From positions 1 through 40,804 of the forward strand of contig BAYV01000016.1 in assembly GCA_000710935.1 (NCBI GenBank): a DNA stretch of 40,804 nt, read 5' to 3'. The notes beneath the pieces were generated by a model. The model made no database searches. It was not told the origin of the DNA and saw only the letters and a list, made by a program, of their open reading frames with translations. Position 1 is the first letter of the stretch; every line of letters starts with the position of its first letter. The translations under genes were made by a program, and so were the position numbers. Shown here piece after piece: positions 14,386 to 27,601 of this stretch. The stretch is from Iodidimonas nitroreducens (lineage in GTDB: Bacteria; Pseudomonadota; Alphaproteobacteria; Sphingomonadales; Rhodothalassiaceae).

Positions 14386-14528
14386 GCGGGTCTCTCCAGA
14401 ACAGAACTTTCTATCAACTAAAATCATGGCCCTGATATGACCGGACTCCGAACGGGACTTGACCCGATCATGCCGATTTCCGCATTGTCTGATCCATGAT
14501 TTTGCGATCAGATCAGGAAAAGAGCCAG

Positions 14529-17444
14529 ATGCCTGCCATAGCACCCCCCTATGATCAGATCAAAGCGGCAGATGCATATGACGCGCTTTTGAAGACAAGC
14601 GATGATCCCAAAGATCTGGCCCTTTTGAAACAAGCCGAAACCAAAGCGCTGGTTCACGCCATGGCGGGCAACAGCCCCTTTCTGGCACGGCTCTTACAAA
14701 TGTGCCCGGATGCTTTGCTAGCAATGCTATCCCTTGGCCCGGATGCGGCATGGACGGCACAGTATGAAGACGTGCGGCAACAGACATATTCGGCTGCAAA
14801 TCTCGATCAACTGATGCAGTGCCTGCGGATCGCCAAAATGCGGATGGCCCTTTTGGTGGCGGCAGCCGATCTTTCGGGTCAGTGGGATTTAGGCAAAATC
14901 ACCCGCGCCTTATCAGATTATGCTGATCTCTCCATCGAATCGGCGGTGCAGTTTCTTTTGCTCGATCGCATCCAGAAAGGTGAATTGAAAGCTGGGAACG
15001 ATGGCGACAAACCCGAAAATTGCGGATATTTCGTGCTGGCCATGGGCAAGCTGGGAGCGCATGAACTTAATTATTCCAGCGATATCGATCTGATCGTTTT
15101 ATATGACGAGGAAATCGCGCAAGCCACGGGCCCGCGTTCCCTATCTGATTGCATGATCAGGATCACCCAGGATCTGGTGCGGATTCTTGATGCCCGCACG
15201 GCTTATGGTTATGTGTTTCGCACCGATCTTCGGTTGCGGCCCGACCCCGGGGCCACATCCATTGCTTTATCGGTGGGGGCGGCGGAATCCTATTATCAAA
15301 GCCTTGCCCAGCCATGGGAGCGGGCCGCCATGATCAAGGCCCGGGTCTGTGCCGGTGATCGCAAGGCAGGCGCCGCCTATCTGCAAAGATTATCGCCGTT
15401 CATCTGGCGGCGTTCGATGGATTTTGCGGCCATTGAGGATATTCACCGCATCAAAAACCAGATCCATCGTCATCATCATCATGAAAAGGGCGCTTTCAGC
15501 CTCCCGGGATTTGATGTGAAGCTGGGTCGGGGCGGCATTCGTGAGATTGAATTTTTCACCCAGATCAATCAACTCATAGCCGGGGGCAGAAACCCTGCCT
15601 TACGCAGCAAAGCAACTCTGGAAACACTTGATCATCTGGTGCAGCACAACCGGATCAAGGCTATCGAGCGGGATGAACTGGCCCAGGCCTATCAATTTTT
15701 GCGGATGATCGAACATCGCCTGCAAATGATCCATGATGCGCAAACCCATAAAATTCCCGAGCAACCCGATGATCTGGCGCGAATCGCCTGTTTTTGTGGG
15801 TTCACATCCCCCGATGCTTTGCACAGCGCACTCAAAAATCATCTGGACCCTGTCAGCCGGCATTATGAAGCCCTATTGCCCGCCGGTGATGAAACGGAAG
15901 ACAGTGGATATCCAAATGAGGCGGCGCTGCTATCCTTGCTCGAAGAGCTGGGCTTTGCCAATCCATCCGATATGGTGCAGGTGATCGACCGCTGGCAAAG
16001 GGGCCGCTATCGGGCCTTGAAAACGGCCCGGGCGCGCAAGCTTTTATCGCATTGCCTAAAGCCGCTTTTGGAAGCCTTTTCCGGCACCCAGCAGCCGGAT
16101 CGCGCCCTCAGTCGATTTGATAGCTTCATCGCCCAACTGCCTGCGGGTGTTCAGATTTTCTCGCTCTTTCAATCGAATCCTTCGCTCTTTCGGCTGGTGG
16201 CGCGGATCATGGGAATCGCCCCCGCTTTAGCCGAAAACATGGCCCGCCATCCGCATCTGGTGGATGCGATCCTTGATCCCGATTTTTTTGCGCCCCTGCC
16301 CGATCAACAGGCCTTGCGCGCGGATCTGGAAACCGCCCTCAAAAGGGCGCGGGATTATCAGGATATTCTCGATATCGTGCGGCGCTGGACTGATGAGCGC
16401 AAATTTCAGCTTGGGGTGCAGGCGCTTGAAGCCATTTGCAATGTGCGTGAAACCAGCCTGTCGATGACCAATCTGGCCGATGCCGTGATGGAAACGCTGC
16501 TGCCCCGGGTTGTGGATCAGTATGCCGAGCGTTTCGGGCGTTTTCCCGGCGGGGCTTTAGGCATCGTGGCGATGGGAAAATATGGCGGCCGGGAATTGTC
16601 TTTCGGCTCTGATCTTGATCTGGTGTTTCTTTATGATGTGGCGGGCGATGCCCAACAATCCGACGGCCCGAGACAAGTGGGGCCCTCGCGCTATTTCAGC
16701 GGCCTGGGGCAAGCACTTTTAACCGCCTTCACGGCGCTAACATCCGAAGGGCGGCTATGGGAGGTGGATACCCGGCTGCGGCCATCGGGCAATGCGGGGC
16801 CACTGGTTGTCACCTTGAAAACCTTTGCCGATTATTATCGCGATGCCGCCTGGACATGGGAGCATATGGCCCTGACCCGGGCCCGGCTGGTGGCCACGCC
16901 CGATAGCATGGCCGATAATATCAGGCGCAACATTCACAGCACCCTCACCGCCGGCCATGATCCGAAGGCCCTGATGCCTGCGGTTTTTTCCATGCGGGAA
17001 AGGCTTGCCGCGCAATTTTCAACGGAAAATCCCTGGAGCCTGAAACATGTGCGGGGCGGGCTGATCGATATGGAGTTCATCATCCAATATCTGTTATTGC
17101 GCCATGGCCAAAAGCAGCAAACAATCTTCACCCCAAGGCTTGATGATTGCATCGATCATCTGATCGCCATCAAGGCGCTGACATCAGATGCTGGGGATAA
17201 GCTGAAAACGGCCCATGCCCATTTCCATGCCATCCAAAGCATCTTGCGATTGACCTTGACCGGCGAGCCTGATGAGCGCAGCTTTCCGCCCGAATTGCGC
17301 GCCGTGCTTGCCCGGGCAACCCAAGCCACGGATTTCGCACACACCCAAGAGCAATTAATGACCGGGCTTGCCGATGTGAAGCAAATTTATCATCATTATC
17401 TGGGTCAACACCGCCAAGCACAGGAAAGCGAGACAGTTTCATGA
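14529..17444 (+). CDS. glnE: bifunctional glutamine synthetase adenylyltransferase/adenylyl-removing enzyme
   Basis: GlnE adds AMP to glutamine synthetase or removes it in response to nitrogen status signalled through PII. The 971-residue product has both nucleotidyltransferase domains: the N-terminal deadenylylase with SSDIDLIVLYDEE and the C-terminal adenylylase with GSDLDLVFLYD. Both keep the paired Asp residues that bind metal. GlnD-PII regulatory helices lie between. An ATG at 14496 is possible, but 14529 has AGGA and AAGAG just upstream. It is divergent from the AsmA-like gene and overlaps bcp downstream by four bases (ATGA), so the two are probably translated in a coupled way. Confidence 0.96.
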   Translation: MPAIAPPYDQIKAADAYDALLKTSDDPKDLALLKQAETKALVHAMAGNSPFLARLLQMCPDALLAMLSLGPDAAWTAQYEDVRQQTYSAANLDQLMQCLRIAKMRMALLVAAADLSGQWDLGKITRALSDYADLSIESAVQFLLLDRIQKGELKAGNDGDKPENCGYFVLAMGKLGAHELNYSSDIDLIVLYDEEIAQATGPRSLSDCMIRITQDLVRILDARTAYGYVFRTDLRLRPDPGATSIALSVGAAESYYQSLAQPWERAAMIKARVCAGDRKAGAAYLQRLSPFIWRRSMDFAAIEDIHRIKNQIHRHHHHEKGAFSLPGFDVKLGRGGIREIEFFTQINQLIAGGRNPALRSKATLETLDHLVQHNRIKAIERDELAQAYQFLRMIEHRLQMIHDAQTHKIPEQPDDLARIACFCGFTSPDALHSALKNHLDPVSRHYEALLPAGDETEDSGYPNEAALLSLLEELGFANPSDMVQVIDRWQRGRYRALKTARARKLLSHCLKPLLEAFSGTQQPDRALSRFDSFIAQLPAGVQIFSLFQSNPSLFRLVARIMGIAPALAENMARHPHLVDAILDPDFFAPLPDQQALRADLETALKRARDYQDILDIVRRWTDERKFQLGVQALEAICNVRETSLSMTNLADAVMETLLPRVVDQYAERFGRFPGGALGIVAMGKYGGRELSFGSDLDLVFLYDVAGDAQQSDGPRQVGPSRYFSGLGQALLTAFTALTSEGRLWEVDTRLRPSGNAGPLVVTLKTFADYYRDAAWTWEHMALTRARLVATPDSMADNIRRNIHSTLTAGHDPKALMPAVFSMRERLAAQFSTENPWSLKHVRGGLIDMEFIIQYLLLRHGQKQQTIFTPRLDDCIDHLIAIKALTSDAGDKLKTAHAHFHAIQSILRLTLTGEPDERSFPPELRAVLARATQATDFAHTQEQLMTGLADVKQIYHHYLGQHRQAQESETVS

Positions 17445-17929
17445 CCGACAATCCATCCGCAACGGGCCCCGCAATCGGCGACAACGCCCCCGATTTTTCC
17501 CTGCCCGCAGATGGTGGAGACACTTTGCGCCTTGCCGATTTCAAGGGCCGGAAGCTGGTATTGTATTTCTACCCAAAGGACAACACCCCCGGCTGCACCA
17601 CCGAAGCCAAGGATTTCAGCCGCCTCAAAGCGGAATTCGATGCCGCCGATACAGTGGTTCTTGGCGTTTCAAAAGATTCCGTCAAAAAGCATGACAATTT
17701 CATTGCCAAGCAGGATCTTAAAATCCGGCTCTTATCAGATGAAAAGGGCGATCTGTGCGAACGCTATGGCGTATGGCAGGAAAAACAGATGTACGGCCGC
17801 AGCTATATGGGCATCAACAGATCGAGCTTTCTGATCGACCGGGAGGGCAAAATTGCCCATCTCTGGCCCAAGGTGAAGGTAAAGGGCCATGCCGATGAGG
17901 TTCTGGCCGCCTGCCAATCCTTAGCTTGA
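17441..17929 (+). CDS. bcp: thioredoxin-dependent peroxiredoxin, Bcp/PrxQ type
   Basis: A 162-residue cytoplasmic peroxiredoxin reducing hydrogen and alkyl peroxides. The peroxidatic Cys is in TPGCTTEAKDF, within YFYPKDNTPGCTTE, the standard Bcp signature. The resolving Cys five residues later, present in E. coli Bcp, is absent here (Lys/Asp in that region). The enzyme may therefore work as a one-Cys type or use Cys in DLCERYG. The start codon overlaps the glnE stop. Its own stop codon lies inside the first unit of a 17-bp tandem repeat array. Confidence 0.95.
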   Translation: MTDNPSATGPAIGDNAPDFSLPADGGDTLRLADFKGRKLVLYFYPKDNTPGCTTEAKDFSRLKAEFDAADTVVLGVSKDSVKKHDNFIAKQDLKIRLLSDEKGDLCERYGVWQEKQMYGRSYMGINRSSFLIDREGKIAHLWPKVKVKGHADEVLAACQSLA

Positions 17930-17995
17930 TTATGGCCTTGGCGTGATGATGGCCTTAGCGTGATGATGGCCTTAGCGTGATGATGGCTTTGGTGT
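17928..17995 (+). repeat. four tandem copies of a 17-bp repeat
   Basis: Units at 17928-17944, 17945-17961, 17962-17978 and 17979-17995. The two central units are identical (GATGATGGCCTTAGCGT); the first differs at two positions and the last at three. Each unit holds a start and, with the next base pair, a stop, giving mini-frames MALA, MMALA, MMALA and MMALV that abut one another at TGATG junctions between bcp and the DUF455 gene. Confidence 0.95.
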
Positions 17996-18001
17996 GATCG
18001 C

Positions 18002-18841
18002 ATGTTTAATTCCGCAATGACGAATGCGCCGACCCAAACTCTGGGGGCCATGGCGGCTCAGGTGCTGGGCTGTGATGATGCCATCCTGAAAGCCCGCAAA
18101 AGCCGGGAAGCCGCCAGCCTGTGGCAAGCCGGTGCGCTGGTGGCATCCTTTCCCAAAGCCCTGCCCGCCCGCCCCGGTCGACCGCAAAAACCGCAGCTTT
18201 TGCCACCCGGTGAAATGCCCCGCAGGCGCAAAGCCGGAAGCCTTGCCACCCGCATCGCCCTGCTTCATGCCGTGGCCCATATCGAATTGAATGCCATCGA
18301 TCTCGCCTGGGATCTGATTGCCCGTTTTGGCGCGGATATGCCCCGTGATTTTCTGGATGATTGGGTGGGGGTTGCCGATGATGAAGCCCGCCATTTCATG
18401 CTGATATCAGATCGTTTGATCGCTTATGGCTCGGCTTATGGCGAGCTGCCCGCCCATGATGGGCTGTGGGAGGCGGCCATCAACACTGCGGATTGTTTTG
18501 AAGCCCGCCTTGCGGTGGTGCCTTTGGTTTTGGAGGCACGGGGCCTTGATGTCACCCCATCCATGATTGCGCGGTTCCAATCCATGGGTGATTCGGAAAG
18601 CGTAGAAGCGCTTTCGACCATTTATCATGATGAAATCGGCCATGTGGCTGCAGGGGCGCGCTGGTTTCACTGGCACTGTGAAAGGCTTGGCCTTGATCCC
18701 GAAAAAAGCTTTCAATCCCTTGTCACCCGCTATTTTCGCGGTGCTTTAAAGCCGCCCTTTAATGTGGAAGCCCGCAGCAAAGCCGGGCTGGCAGAAAGCT
18801 TTTACCAGCCGCTGGCACCTCAAACCGCTGAAAAGCCTTGA
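18002..18841 (+). CDS. DUF455 family ferritin-like protein
   Basis: A 279-residue all-helical protein of the DUF455 family, related to ferritin-like di-iron proteins such as MiaE. Candidate iron ligands are visible: HAVAHIELNAIDLAWDL (Glu plus His), DDEARHFMLI (ExxH type), and HDEIGHVAAGARWF (ExxH). No experimentally agreed function is known to me; a tRNA-hydroxylase-like or other di-iron oxidation role is an inference from the fold. The first ATG follows the last mini-frame of the tandem repeat by four bases. A second ATG at 18017 is possible. A 165-base gap with no clear feature separates it from the next gene. Confidence 0.88.
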   Translation: MFNSAMTNAPTQTLGAMAAQVLGCDDAILKARKSREAASLWQAGALVASFPKALPARPGRPQKPQLLPPGEMPRRRKAGSLATRIALLHAVAHIELNAIDLAWDLIARFGADMPRDFLDDWVGVADDEARHFMLISDRLIAYGSAYGELPAHDGLWEAAINTADCFEARLAVVPLVLEARGLDVTPSMIARFQSMGDSESVEALSTIYHDEIGHVAAGARWFHWHCERLGLDPEKSFQSLVTRYFRGALKPPFNVEARSKAGLAESFYQPLAPQTAEKP

Positions 18842-26013: not shown

Positions 26014-26016
26014 GAA

Positions 26017-26040
26017 ACCGATCAACCGATCAACCGATCA
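26017..26040. repeat. three perfect tandem copies of an 8-bp sequence
   Basis: ACCGATCA repeated exactly three times between the terminator and the end of pepA; the last three bases are the pepA stop codon read on the minus strand. Each copy contains GATC. Confidence 0.95.
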
Positions 26041-27522
26041 GCCTTTATGATCGCGCACATAGCGATCCAGCAAGCGCACACCAAAGCCCGTGGCCCCCTT
26101 TTCATAAAGATCATGCTCTTTATCCGACCAGACCATACCCGCAACATCGATATGCACCCATGGCACATCATTGCTGAAGCGCTTGAGAAACTGCGCGGCG
26201 GTAATCGATCCTGCCGCCCGGCCGCCAACATTTTTCATATCGGCGATATCGCAATTGATCAGCTTGTCATATTCATCGGCCAAAGGCATCCGCCAAACCT
26301 TGTCCCCTGATTGATCGCCCGCCTTATAAAGAGCAGCGGAGAGACCCTCATCAGCGGTGAAATAGCCGGCATATTCATGCCCCAGTGAAATGATAATGGC
26401 CCCGGTCAGGGTTGCCAGATCGATCATGGAAGTGGGTTTGAAGCGATCCTGAGTGTACCAAAGGGCATCAGCCAGAACCAGCCGCCCTTCGGCATCGGTA
26501 TTGATCACCTCGATGGTTTGACCCGACATCGAGGTAACCACATCACCCGGGCGCTGGGCTGATCCCGATGGCATATTTTCCACCAGACCAATCACCCCCA
26601 CCACATTGGCTTTGGCTTTTCTGCGGGCAAGGGCGCGCATCAGGCCGGTTACGATCCCGGCACCGCCCATATCCCATTTCATCTGCTCCATGCCTTCGGC
26701 TGGCTTGATGGAAATGCCGCCGGTATCAAAGGTCACCCCTTTGCCAACAAAAGCGATGGGCTGATCCGCCGGATCGCCGCCATTCCAGCGCATCACCACA
26801 AGGCGGGATTCGCGATCGCTCCCTTGGCCCACCCCCAAAAGCGCATTCATCCCCAGCTTGCGCATCTCTTTCTCATTGAGCACCTCTACCTCGATCCCAT
26901 CATCACCAAGGCTTTGAGCAATTTTGGCAAAGCTTTCGGGATAAAGGATATTGGCCGGTTCAGAGACCAGATCACGGGTCAGGAAAACGCCGGATAGAAC
27001 CGCATTTTCCACGCTAAACAGGGATTGCGCCTTTTTATGTTCAGCGCTGGCAATCACCAGTTCCTTCAAGGTCGGTTTTTTCGATTTCGGTTCTTTGGTG
27101 CGATATTTATCAAAGCGATAGGATCGCAGCATGGCCCCTGTGGCCAAAGCGCAAGCCTGCTCCGCCAAGGGCAGATCGGCCCCTGTGTTATCAAGAAGGA
27201 TGGTGGCCAGAGGATCGCCCGCAGATTGCAGATATTTCGCCAGCCGCCCCCCCAGCCGTTCAAAATCAGTGACCTTCAGGGTTTTCACATCGCCCAGGCC
27301 CGCAAGAATGATCCGGCTGGCATCAATCCCGCTGGGCGCCAAAAGATCCAGAATATCGGTTGCTTGCCCGCCCCAGCGGCTTGATTTGATGGCCTTTGAA
27401 ATGGCCCCGCCCGTGGCGTCATCCAATCGCCTGACATGGGGATTTTGGATGGCATCCTTATCAGCCAAAAGCACCAGCACGCCCGATTTTGGATCTTTTG
27501 CTTCAGAAAACGATAGTTTCAT
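26038..27522 (-). CDS. pepA: leucyl aminopeptidase (M17 family)
   Basis: A ~494-residue cytosolic dinuclear-metal aminopeptidase that removes N-terminal residues from peptides. The C-terminal catalytic domain shows VGKGVTFDTGGISIKP, the metal-binding MKWDMGGAG and the family signature NTDAEGRLVLADAL. The start at 27522 (MKLSFSEAK) has AGGGA eight bases upstream; the longer frame from 27549 lacks a better site. It is divergent from lptD. In other bacteria PepA also binds DNA as a recombination accessory factor; nothing in the sequence tests that here. Confidence 0.96.
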   Translation of the reverse strand: MKLSFSEAKDPKSGVLVLLADKDAIQNPHVRRLDDATGGAISKAIKSSRWGGQATDILDLLAPSGIDASRIILAGLGDVKTLKVTDFERLGGRLAKYLQSAGDPLATILLDNTGADLPLAEQACALATGAMLRSYRFDKYRTKEPKSKKPTLKELVIASAEHKKAQSLFSVENAVLSGVFLTRDLVSEPANILYPESFAKIAQSLGDDGIEVEVLNEKEMRKLGMNALLGVGQGSDRESRLVVMRWNGGDPADQPIAFVGKGVTFDTGGISIKPAEGMEQMKWDMGGAGIVTGLMRALARRKAKANVVGVIGLVENMPSGSAQRPGDVVTSMSGQTIEVINTDAEGRLVLADALWYTQDRFKPTSMIDLATLTGAIIISLGHEYAGYFTADEGLSAALYKAGDQSGDKVWRMPLADEYDKLINCDIADMKNVGGRAAGSITAAQFLKRFSNDVPWVHIDVAGMVWSDKEHDLYEKGATGFGVRLLDRYVRDHKG

Positions 27523-27601
27523 TATGAATTCCCTACTCATCACAGACAACGCCCCGCCCTATGGGCCGGGACATATTGATCACGCGCCACCATAATGTGG
27601 G

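Follow-up and report, generated by a model that had tools for sequence, protein, structure and literature searches.

The genes for the peroxiredoxin Bcp and for a DUF455 protein of Iodidimonas nitroreducens are separated by a gap of 72 nt that holds four mini-ORFs, and the question raised by this locus is whether the chain hands ribosomes from bcp to the DUF455 gene or is a neutral by-product of tandem duplication, with the DUF455 gene starting on its own and the mini-ORFs left unused. The window (the whole stretch of DNA that was analysed, 40,804 nucleotides) has glnE, bcp, the DUF455 gene, an M23 peptidase, bactofilin and a sodium:alanine symporter as neighbours at this place. The glnE and bcp genes overlap by 4 nt as ATGA (17441–17444). 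The features of the junction and its surroundings are as follows.

14496–17444, + strand: glnE (Pfam GlnE, 2.4e-117), stop codon TGA at 17442–17444
17441–17929, + strand: bcp, peroxiredoxin (Pfam AhpC-TSA, 1.3e-40)
17927–17929, + strand: stop codon TGA of bcp
17919–17998, + strand: 17-bp array, 4.7 copies, starting within the 3' end of bcp (TRF score 118; shuffles at most 62)
17919–17935, + strand: unit 0 (CCTTAGCTTGATTATGG), the last 11 nt of bcp including the stop, then TTATGG
17932–17946, + strand: mini-ORF 1, MALA and stop, ATG GCC TTG GCG TGA
17946–17963, + strand: mini-ORF 2, MMALA and stop, ATG ATG GCC TTA GCG TGA, linked by TGATG to the stop of mini-ORF 1
17963–17980, + strand: mini-ORF 3, MMALA and stop, ATG ATG GCC TTA GCG TGA, TGATG link
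17980–17997, + strand: mini-ORF 4, MMALV and stop, ATG ATG GCT TTG GTG TGA, TGATG link
18002–18841, + strand: DUF455 gene, ATG at 18002 (Pfam DUF455, 1.7e-100)

The tandem array and its four peptides were described in the initial annotation and are confirmed by the sequence and by TRF (88% matches). Among 40 dinucleotide-shuffled versions of the window, the best score was 62, versus 118 for the array, by which a chance sequence is ruled out. The units stand head to tail, as in a VNTR. The links also agree with the earlier description: the three internal ones are TGATG with a 1-nt overlap, while neither end link overlaps, bcp being joined to mini-ORF 1 as TGA-TT-ATG (+2 nt) and mini-ORF 4 to the DUF455 gene as TGA-TCGC-ATG (+4 nt). 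What had been missed is that the array starts within bcp, unit 0 including the C-terminal codons of that gene. The mini-ORF codons xCC TTA GCx TGA share the register of the final bcp codons TCC TTA GCT TGA; each mini-ORF amounts to a start codon followed by the bcp tail, as expected of a tandem-copied stop/start junction. With 17900–18020 (121 bases) as a DNA query, a single place was matched in the 3.08-Mb genome, and a dispersed repeat was thus rejected. A variable-gap TGATG pattern gave at least 52 plus at least 52 matches in the same genome, and among the matches listed the array of the window was, by eye, the only one with a period of 17.

It had been pointed out that 17 cannot be divided by three, so that the frame shifts with each unit. 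This is right, and simulation gave the exact condition: a unit with ATGA or TGATG yields single-unit mini-ORFs only at periods of 2 mod 3, at which the stop of the next copy falls in the reading frame opened by the present copy. By the same arithmetic, a period of 0 mod 3 would lengthen the downstream protein without a change of frame, and a period of 1 mod 3 would produce two-unit mini-ORFs. When the window's own 17-mers were made tandem, a strict ATG chain was obtained in 11.9%; for 17-mers containing ATGA or TGATG (n = 4,399) the figure was 92.7%. Simulated stretches with ATGA or TGATG gave a chain in 86–98% at periods of 10–30 that are 2 mod 3, and no one-unit chain was obtained from window stretches at periods of 10–30 that are 0 or 1 mod 3. 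The chain is far less surprising once an array exists, and no design is required.

The origin of the array was approached through relatives. In I. muriae (G002) and a second congener (G001), the only two congeners shown by the searches and represented by one genome per species, the array is absent and bcp and the DUF455 gene overlap by 4 nt as ATGA. Both congeners thus have the −4 or −1 nt overlap of a TeRe pair, whereas the window has a gap of 72 nt. For a wider comparison of the junction, 82 loci were taken, 17 of which had no recognisable bcp; 65 rows were left, 62 of them distinct including the window. An in-frame start at −4 or −1 was present in 24 of the 61 distinct bcp/DUF455 junctions other than that of the window, which came from the order and from outside it (with ATG in 16 of the 24), and none of the 61 had an array comparable to that of the window at a TRF score of at least 40. 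At that threshold five weak arrays were found (scores 41–46), four of them 74–166 nt downstream of the stop and the fifth (L085) at +15 to +40. A differently lengthened junction was noticed in L006 (G009), where the bcp/DUF455 gap is about 220 nt and has long inverted repeats by eye.

Because both congeners are without the array and have the 4-nt overlap, the array appears to be a lineage-specific expansion of a stop/start junction. In all likelihood, bcp and the DUF455 gene of the ancestor stood in a 4-nt ATGA overlap, and a short segment spanning the bcp end plus a start codon was then tandemly duplicated and expanded, presumably via replication slippage. Since the unit is 17 nt long (2 mod 3) and carries TGATG, every such copy would automatically become an ATG-to-TGA mini-ORF that repeats the final codons of bcp and whose stop overlaps the start that follows. 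That the chain arose by chance from a recent tandem duplication had been considered before, and this suggestion is supported by the congeners without the array and by three results described below, namely the missing mod-3 bias, a second array at a stop codon and the frequency of short chains.

Upstream of the DUF455 start, no core Shine-Dalgarno sequence was seen by eye in the 20 nt before the ATG at 18002 or before an alternative ATG at 18017, and none precedes the DUF455 ATG in either congener. For comparison, a core Shine-Dalgarno sequence was found for 148 of 453 ATG ORFs in a sample of the genome, against a background of 3% (crude longest-ORF gene calls). The lack of this signal at both possible starts counts against a DUF455 gene that starts by itself, as does the overlapping junction at which the gene begins in both congeners. 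The protein may start at 18017 instead of 18002, and the array could have contributed five residues. The alternative start reads ATGACG, similar to the ATGACC with which the gene begins in I. muriae.

In the reading that we develop further, a leaky relay, part of the ribosomes terminating at bcp would restart at each TGATG in turn and so reach the DUF455 gene. We place this just short of an even chance, and consider the duplication origin together with the relay to be as probable as not as the whole explanation. In one study of termination-reinitiation in E. coli, a distance of +14 nt costs 40–80% and +38 nt almost abolishes coupling (PMC10666635); if this result holds here, the gap of 72 nt should uncouple the DUF455 gene unless ribosomes restart en route. 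According to the same study, the last 15 nt of the upstream gene suffice for coupling, and each unit of the array has about this length plus an overlapping start. A leaky link would survive a gap otherwise too long, and the output would fall geometrically with copy number. Given the overlapping ATGA junction without a core Shine-Dalgarno sequence in the congeners, such a relay would preserve an existing coupling.

Several points argue against the relay. The end links at +2 and +4 are no overlaps, and five successive restarts would multiply the losses. Very short ORFs are, moreover, prone to peptidyl-tRNA drop-off. The picture given in a review (PMC12548453) is less uniform, and no relay is needed if ribosomes couple over +50 to +350 nt, as one study cited there observed. 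The earlier proposal of a ribosome handover from bcp to the next gene is thus upheld in part: the congener overlaps without a Shine-Dalgarno sequence, the distance dependence and three like junctions speak for it, and the lack of a period bias speaks against it. We think that a leaky ribosome relay and no role at all are about equally likely; the mini-ORF chain is a neat, testable accident and not a proven control device.

The like junctions were found by pattern searches in genomes of the order. Four TGATG at period 17 matched in 1 of 296 genomes (G098, contig 83); the array of the window has only three TGATG and so escapes this pattern. The match coincides exactly with the junction of a TadG-like/vWA gene and a TadE-like gene. 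Here the upstream stop overlaps the first start, four MRVAK mini-ORFs are joined by TGATG links, and the last stop and the downstream start form ATGA. This is the cleanest case of the architecture and is better suited than the window for bench work. At L152 920–3044 (G098, contig 83) the array is a perfect 17-bp repeat of 4.5 copies, and every unit contains an SD-like GAGGGTGG.

Four ATGA at period 17 matched in 6 of 296 genomes. The 15 match rows fell into 9 loci, of which 3 were linked co-directional junctions: TadG-like/TadE (four mini-ORFs), transporter/ATE (three) and histidine kinase/sigma-54 regulator (two), the gene families at all three being supported by Pfam. Among the remaining loci, L292 is ambiguous, a 640-codon ORF on the other strand covering its array, and L289 and L300 come from the ends of contigs of a single genome. 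At the citrate-type transporter/ATE junction of G098, a draft assembly with 260 contigs and a completeness of 83%, the mini-ORFs encode MNEPAK, MTDQKK and MTDRRK, and the first start lies 2 nt past the transporter stop. At the junction of the histidine kinase and the sigma-54 response regulator in G226 they encode MSPGPV and MSASPL. For the latter gene pair, 41 genomes of the G226 genus were searched and loci were obtained from 30; by reading, 25 of the 29 others have a plain 4-nt overlap, which suggests that the array of G226 likewise replaced a plain overlap. In L290 1500–1570 (G226, contig 1) the 17-bp units are diverged, and the kinase frame runs through two of them before its stop. The same build is present at three further operon junctions of the order, and the mycobacterial interspersed repetitive units (MIRUs) are a published analogue.

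Selection for the period was then assessed with controls. At period 16, four ATGA matched in 5 of 296 genomes (6 rows, 5 loci) and gave 1 junction array, between MatE and an unknown gene, in which a two-unit mini-ORF abuts the downstream start and the chain from the upstream stop enters another frame. Neither period 19 nor period 20 gave a match for four ATGA in 251 genomes. The reversed-pattern control yielded 0 at period 17 but 3 at period 16. Three of 9 loci at period 17 versus 1 of 5 at period 16 is no evidence of enrichment, and period 20 ought to have matched if a remainder of 2 mod 3 were the only factor. The divergence of units in L290 and L299 was dropped as a sign of selection, since the conservation of ATGA in them is ascertained by the search pattern. 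A sample of 1.24 Mb (the window, 800 kb of its genome and 400 kb of the two congeners) contained 518 co-directional junctions with 10 exact tandem duplications, the periods of which were 0, 1 and 2 mod 3 in 5, 3 and 2 cases. One of the two at 2 mod 3, at an M17 aminopeptidase gene, is probably no real co-directional pair, because the ORF next after the M17 gene has no Pfam match.

In viral contigs, where primitive arrays with an identity of at least 0.8 were counted, four TGATG occurred in 41 arrays at 1 mod 3 versus 52 at 2 mod 3 (periods 13, 16 and 19: 22, 15 and 4; periods 14, 17 and 20: 28, 17 and 7). The viral array L155 has period 17 and ORFs of at least 50 codons on both sides, and is doubtful given a 207-codon ORF on the other strand. 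In the viral contig IMGVR_UViG_3300013104_000038 (L165, L153) a period-17 TGATG array lies in two pieces: in one piece an 86-codon ORF ends in the array, and in the other an 83-codon ORF starts from it. This is possibly another junction array, and ORFs on the other strand cover both pieces. The frequency of linked ATG mini-ORFs by chance was estimated from 1,029 ORFs: one was found in 178 cases, two in 24 and three in 0, by a walker that takes the nearest start and therefore undercounts, scoring the array of the window as one. Short chains are ordinary, and long equal-spaced chains look like duplication products. Overall, the selection tests are negative or underpowered, with no period bias in the genome sample or in the viral contigs.

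These results bear on the neutral reading, in which a slippage array happened to have a period of 2 mod 3 and the DUF455 gene starts itself at 18002 or 18017. We hold it to be a tentative but serious possibility, somewhat below an even chance. It agrees with the junction duplications without period bias, the short linked chains common by chance and the two congeners without the array, and also with the abundance of tandem arrays in this genome (51 with a TRF score of at least 50 in 441 kb). A period-8 array at the stop of the M17 aminopeptidase gene, followed by an ORF without a Pfam match, points in the same direction. The features there are:

26016–26040: 8-bp tandem repeat TGATCGGT, 3.1 copies, from the stop codon of the M17 aminopeptidase gene, units TTG-ATC-GGT-TGA
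26038–27549, − strand: M17 aminopeptidase gene (Pfam, 2e-128)

On the − strand the M17 gene is followed by only one ORF of at least 100 aa, for which Pfam gave no match; as coupling would here have no recognisable target gene, the 8-bp array is a likely by-product control. Against the neutral reading, besides the start signals and congener junctions discussed above, start and stop are kept in all units of the window's array despite substitutions, which are few.

Another reading is an adaptive copy-number tuner, in which the array would vary among strains and the number of restarts would set the level of DUF455 as in a translational VNTR; tuning by copy number was also suggested in the initial annotation. 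There is no evidence for copy-number tuning at this locus, and we rate it as very improbable. A stepwise fall per unit is predicted by the geometry, and related species of another genus have different numbers of 17-nt ATG mini-ORFs at their ATE junction (three in G098, one in G072 and one in G086). However, one linked mini-ORF can be expected by chance (178 of 1,029), and the other 16 of the 19 genomes of the G098 genus are without a 17-nt ATG unit, 10 of these 16 having different linked short ORFs instead. In L340 (G069), MSA, MT, VNSDPL and MVYFNQL, each followed by a stop, bridge the transporter and the ATE start without a tandem repeat.

The nearest published system found is the MIRU. MIRUs are tandem units between co-directional genes, each with a small ORF that overlaps the adjacent ORFs at both ends (PMC4473831). 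In a review they are interpreted as coupled at −4 nt, so that an insert can leave the expression of the next gene nearly unchanged (PMC12548453). The senX3-regX3 MIRU units are 77 and 53 bp long (PMC2453075); by our arithmetic both are 2 mod 3, as the frame rule requires for the array of the window. MIRUs too occur in a two-component operon, like the array of L290, and have no dyad symmetry; likewise, the RNA fold of 17900–18040 has no excess structure (z 0.29). In contrast to MIRUs, which are dispersed and appear mobile, the window's array has units of 17 bp, was found at one genomic place and derives from the sequence of the junction itself. Its end links (+2, +4) do not overlap, and its internal links overlap by 1 nt. 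Since it is not dispersed, the array is not a MIRU, but by analogy it would work like one.

Termination-reinitiation at ATGA/TGATG pairs is similar in that the congeners have exactly such a pair and the internal links of the array are TGATG, and differs in that bcp and the DUF455 gene lie 72 nt apart with four mini-ORFs in place of one overlap. With short ribosome-delivering upstream ORFs (PMC12548453) the array shares peptides without a function of their own, the translation of which would feed the next start; it is, however, a tandem series between two structural genes and not a single leader ORF. A literature search for a junction-derived mini-ORF array gave MIRU literature, the coupling review and unrelated papers, which is not proof of absence.

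There is also a more general proposal, which we regard as rather unlikely: a duplication of 3n+2 nt at an overlapping junction would be a self-made lengthening of coupled operon junctions with the coupling kept. Each copy would then be a stepping stone for ribosomes, the output would fall geometrically while the dependence on the upstream gene stays, and MIRUs would be the mobile version. It is still under debate whether ribosomes that terminate restart locally or scan (PMC10666635, PMC12548453), and natural arrays with a repeated stop/start overlap offer a clean test: local restart predicts a geometric fall per unit and a collapse on a 1-nt change of the unit, whereas for scanning the total length only would matter. 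The 2-mod-3 rule likewise provides a simple genome-wide test for selection on coupling.

That the array acts on DUF455 via RNA structure, a promoter or an array of binding sites and not via translation is scarcely credible: the senX3-regX3 intergenic region, which bears MIRUs, is reported to have promoter activity (PMC4213456), but 17900–18040 folds no more strongly than shuffles (z 0.29) and no sigma-70-like site was found in 17300–18300 by a scan that covers this type only, so that structure, promoter and terminator gain no support from the folding and promoter scans.

The genome is rich in short tandem arrays. In L102 16669–16814 (G000, contig 94), a 15-bp repeat of 9.7 copies with 98% matches lies inside a called ORF.
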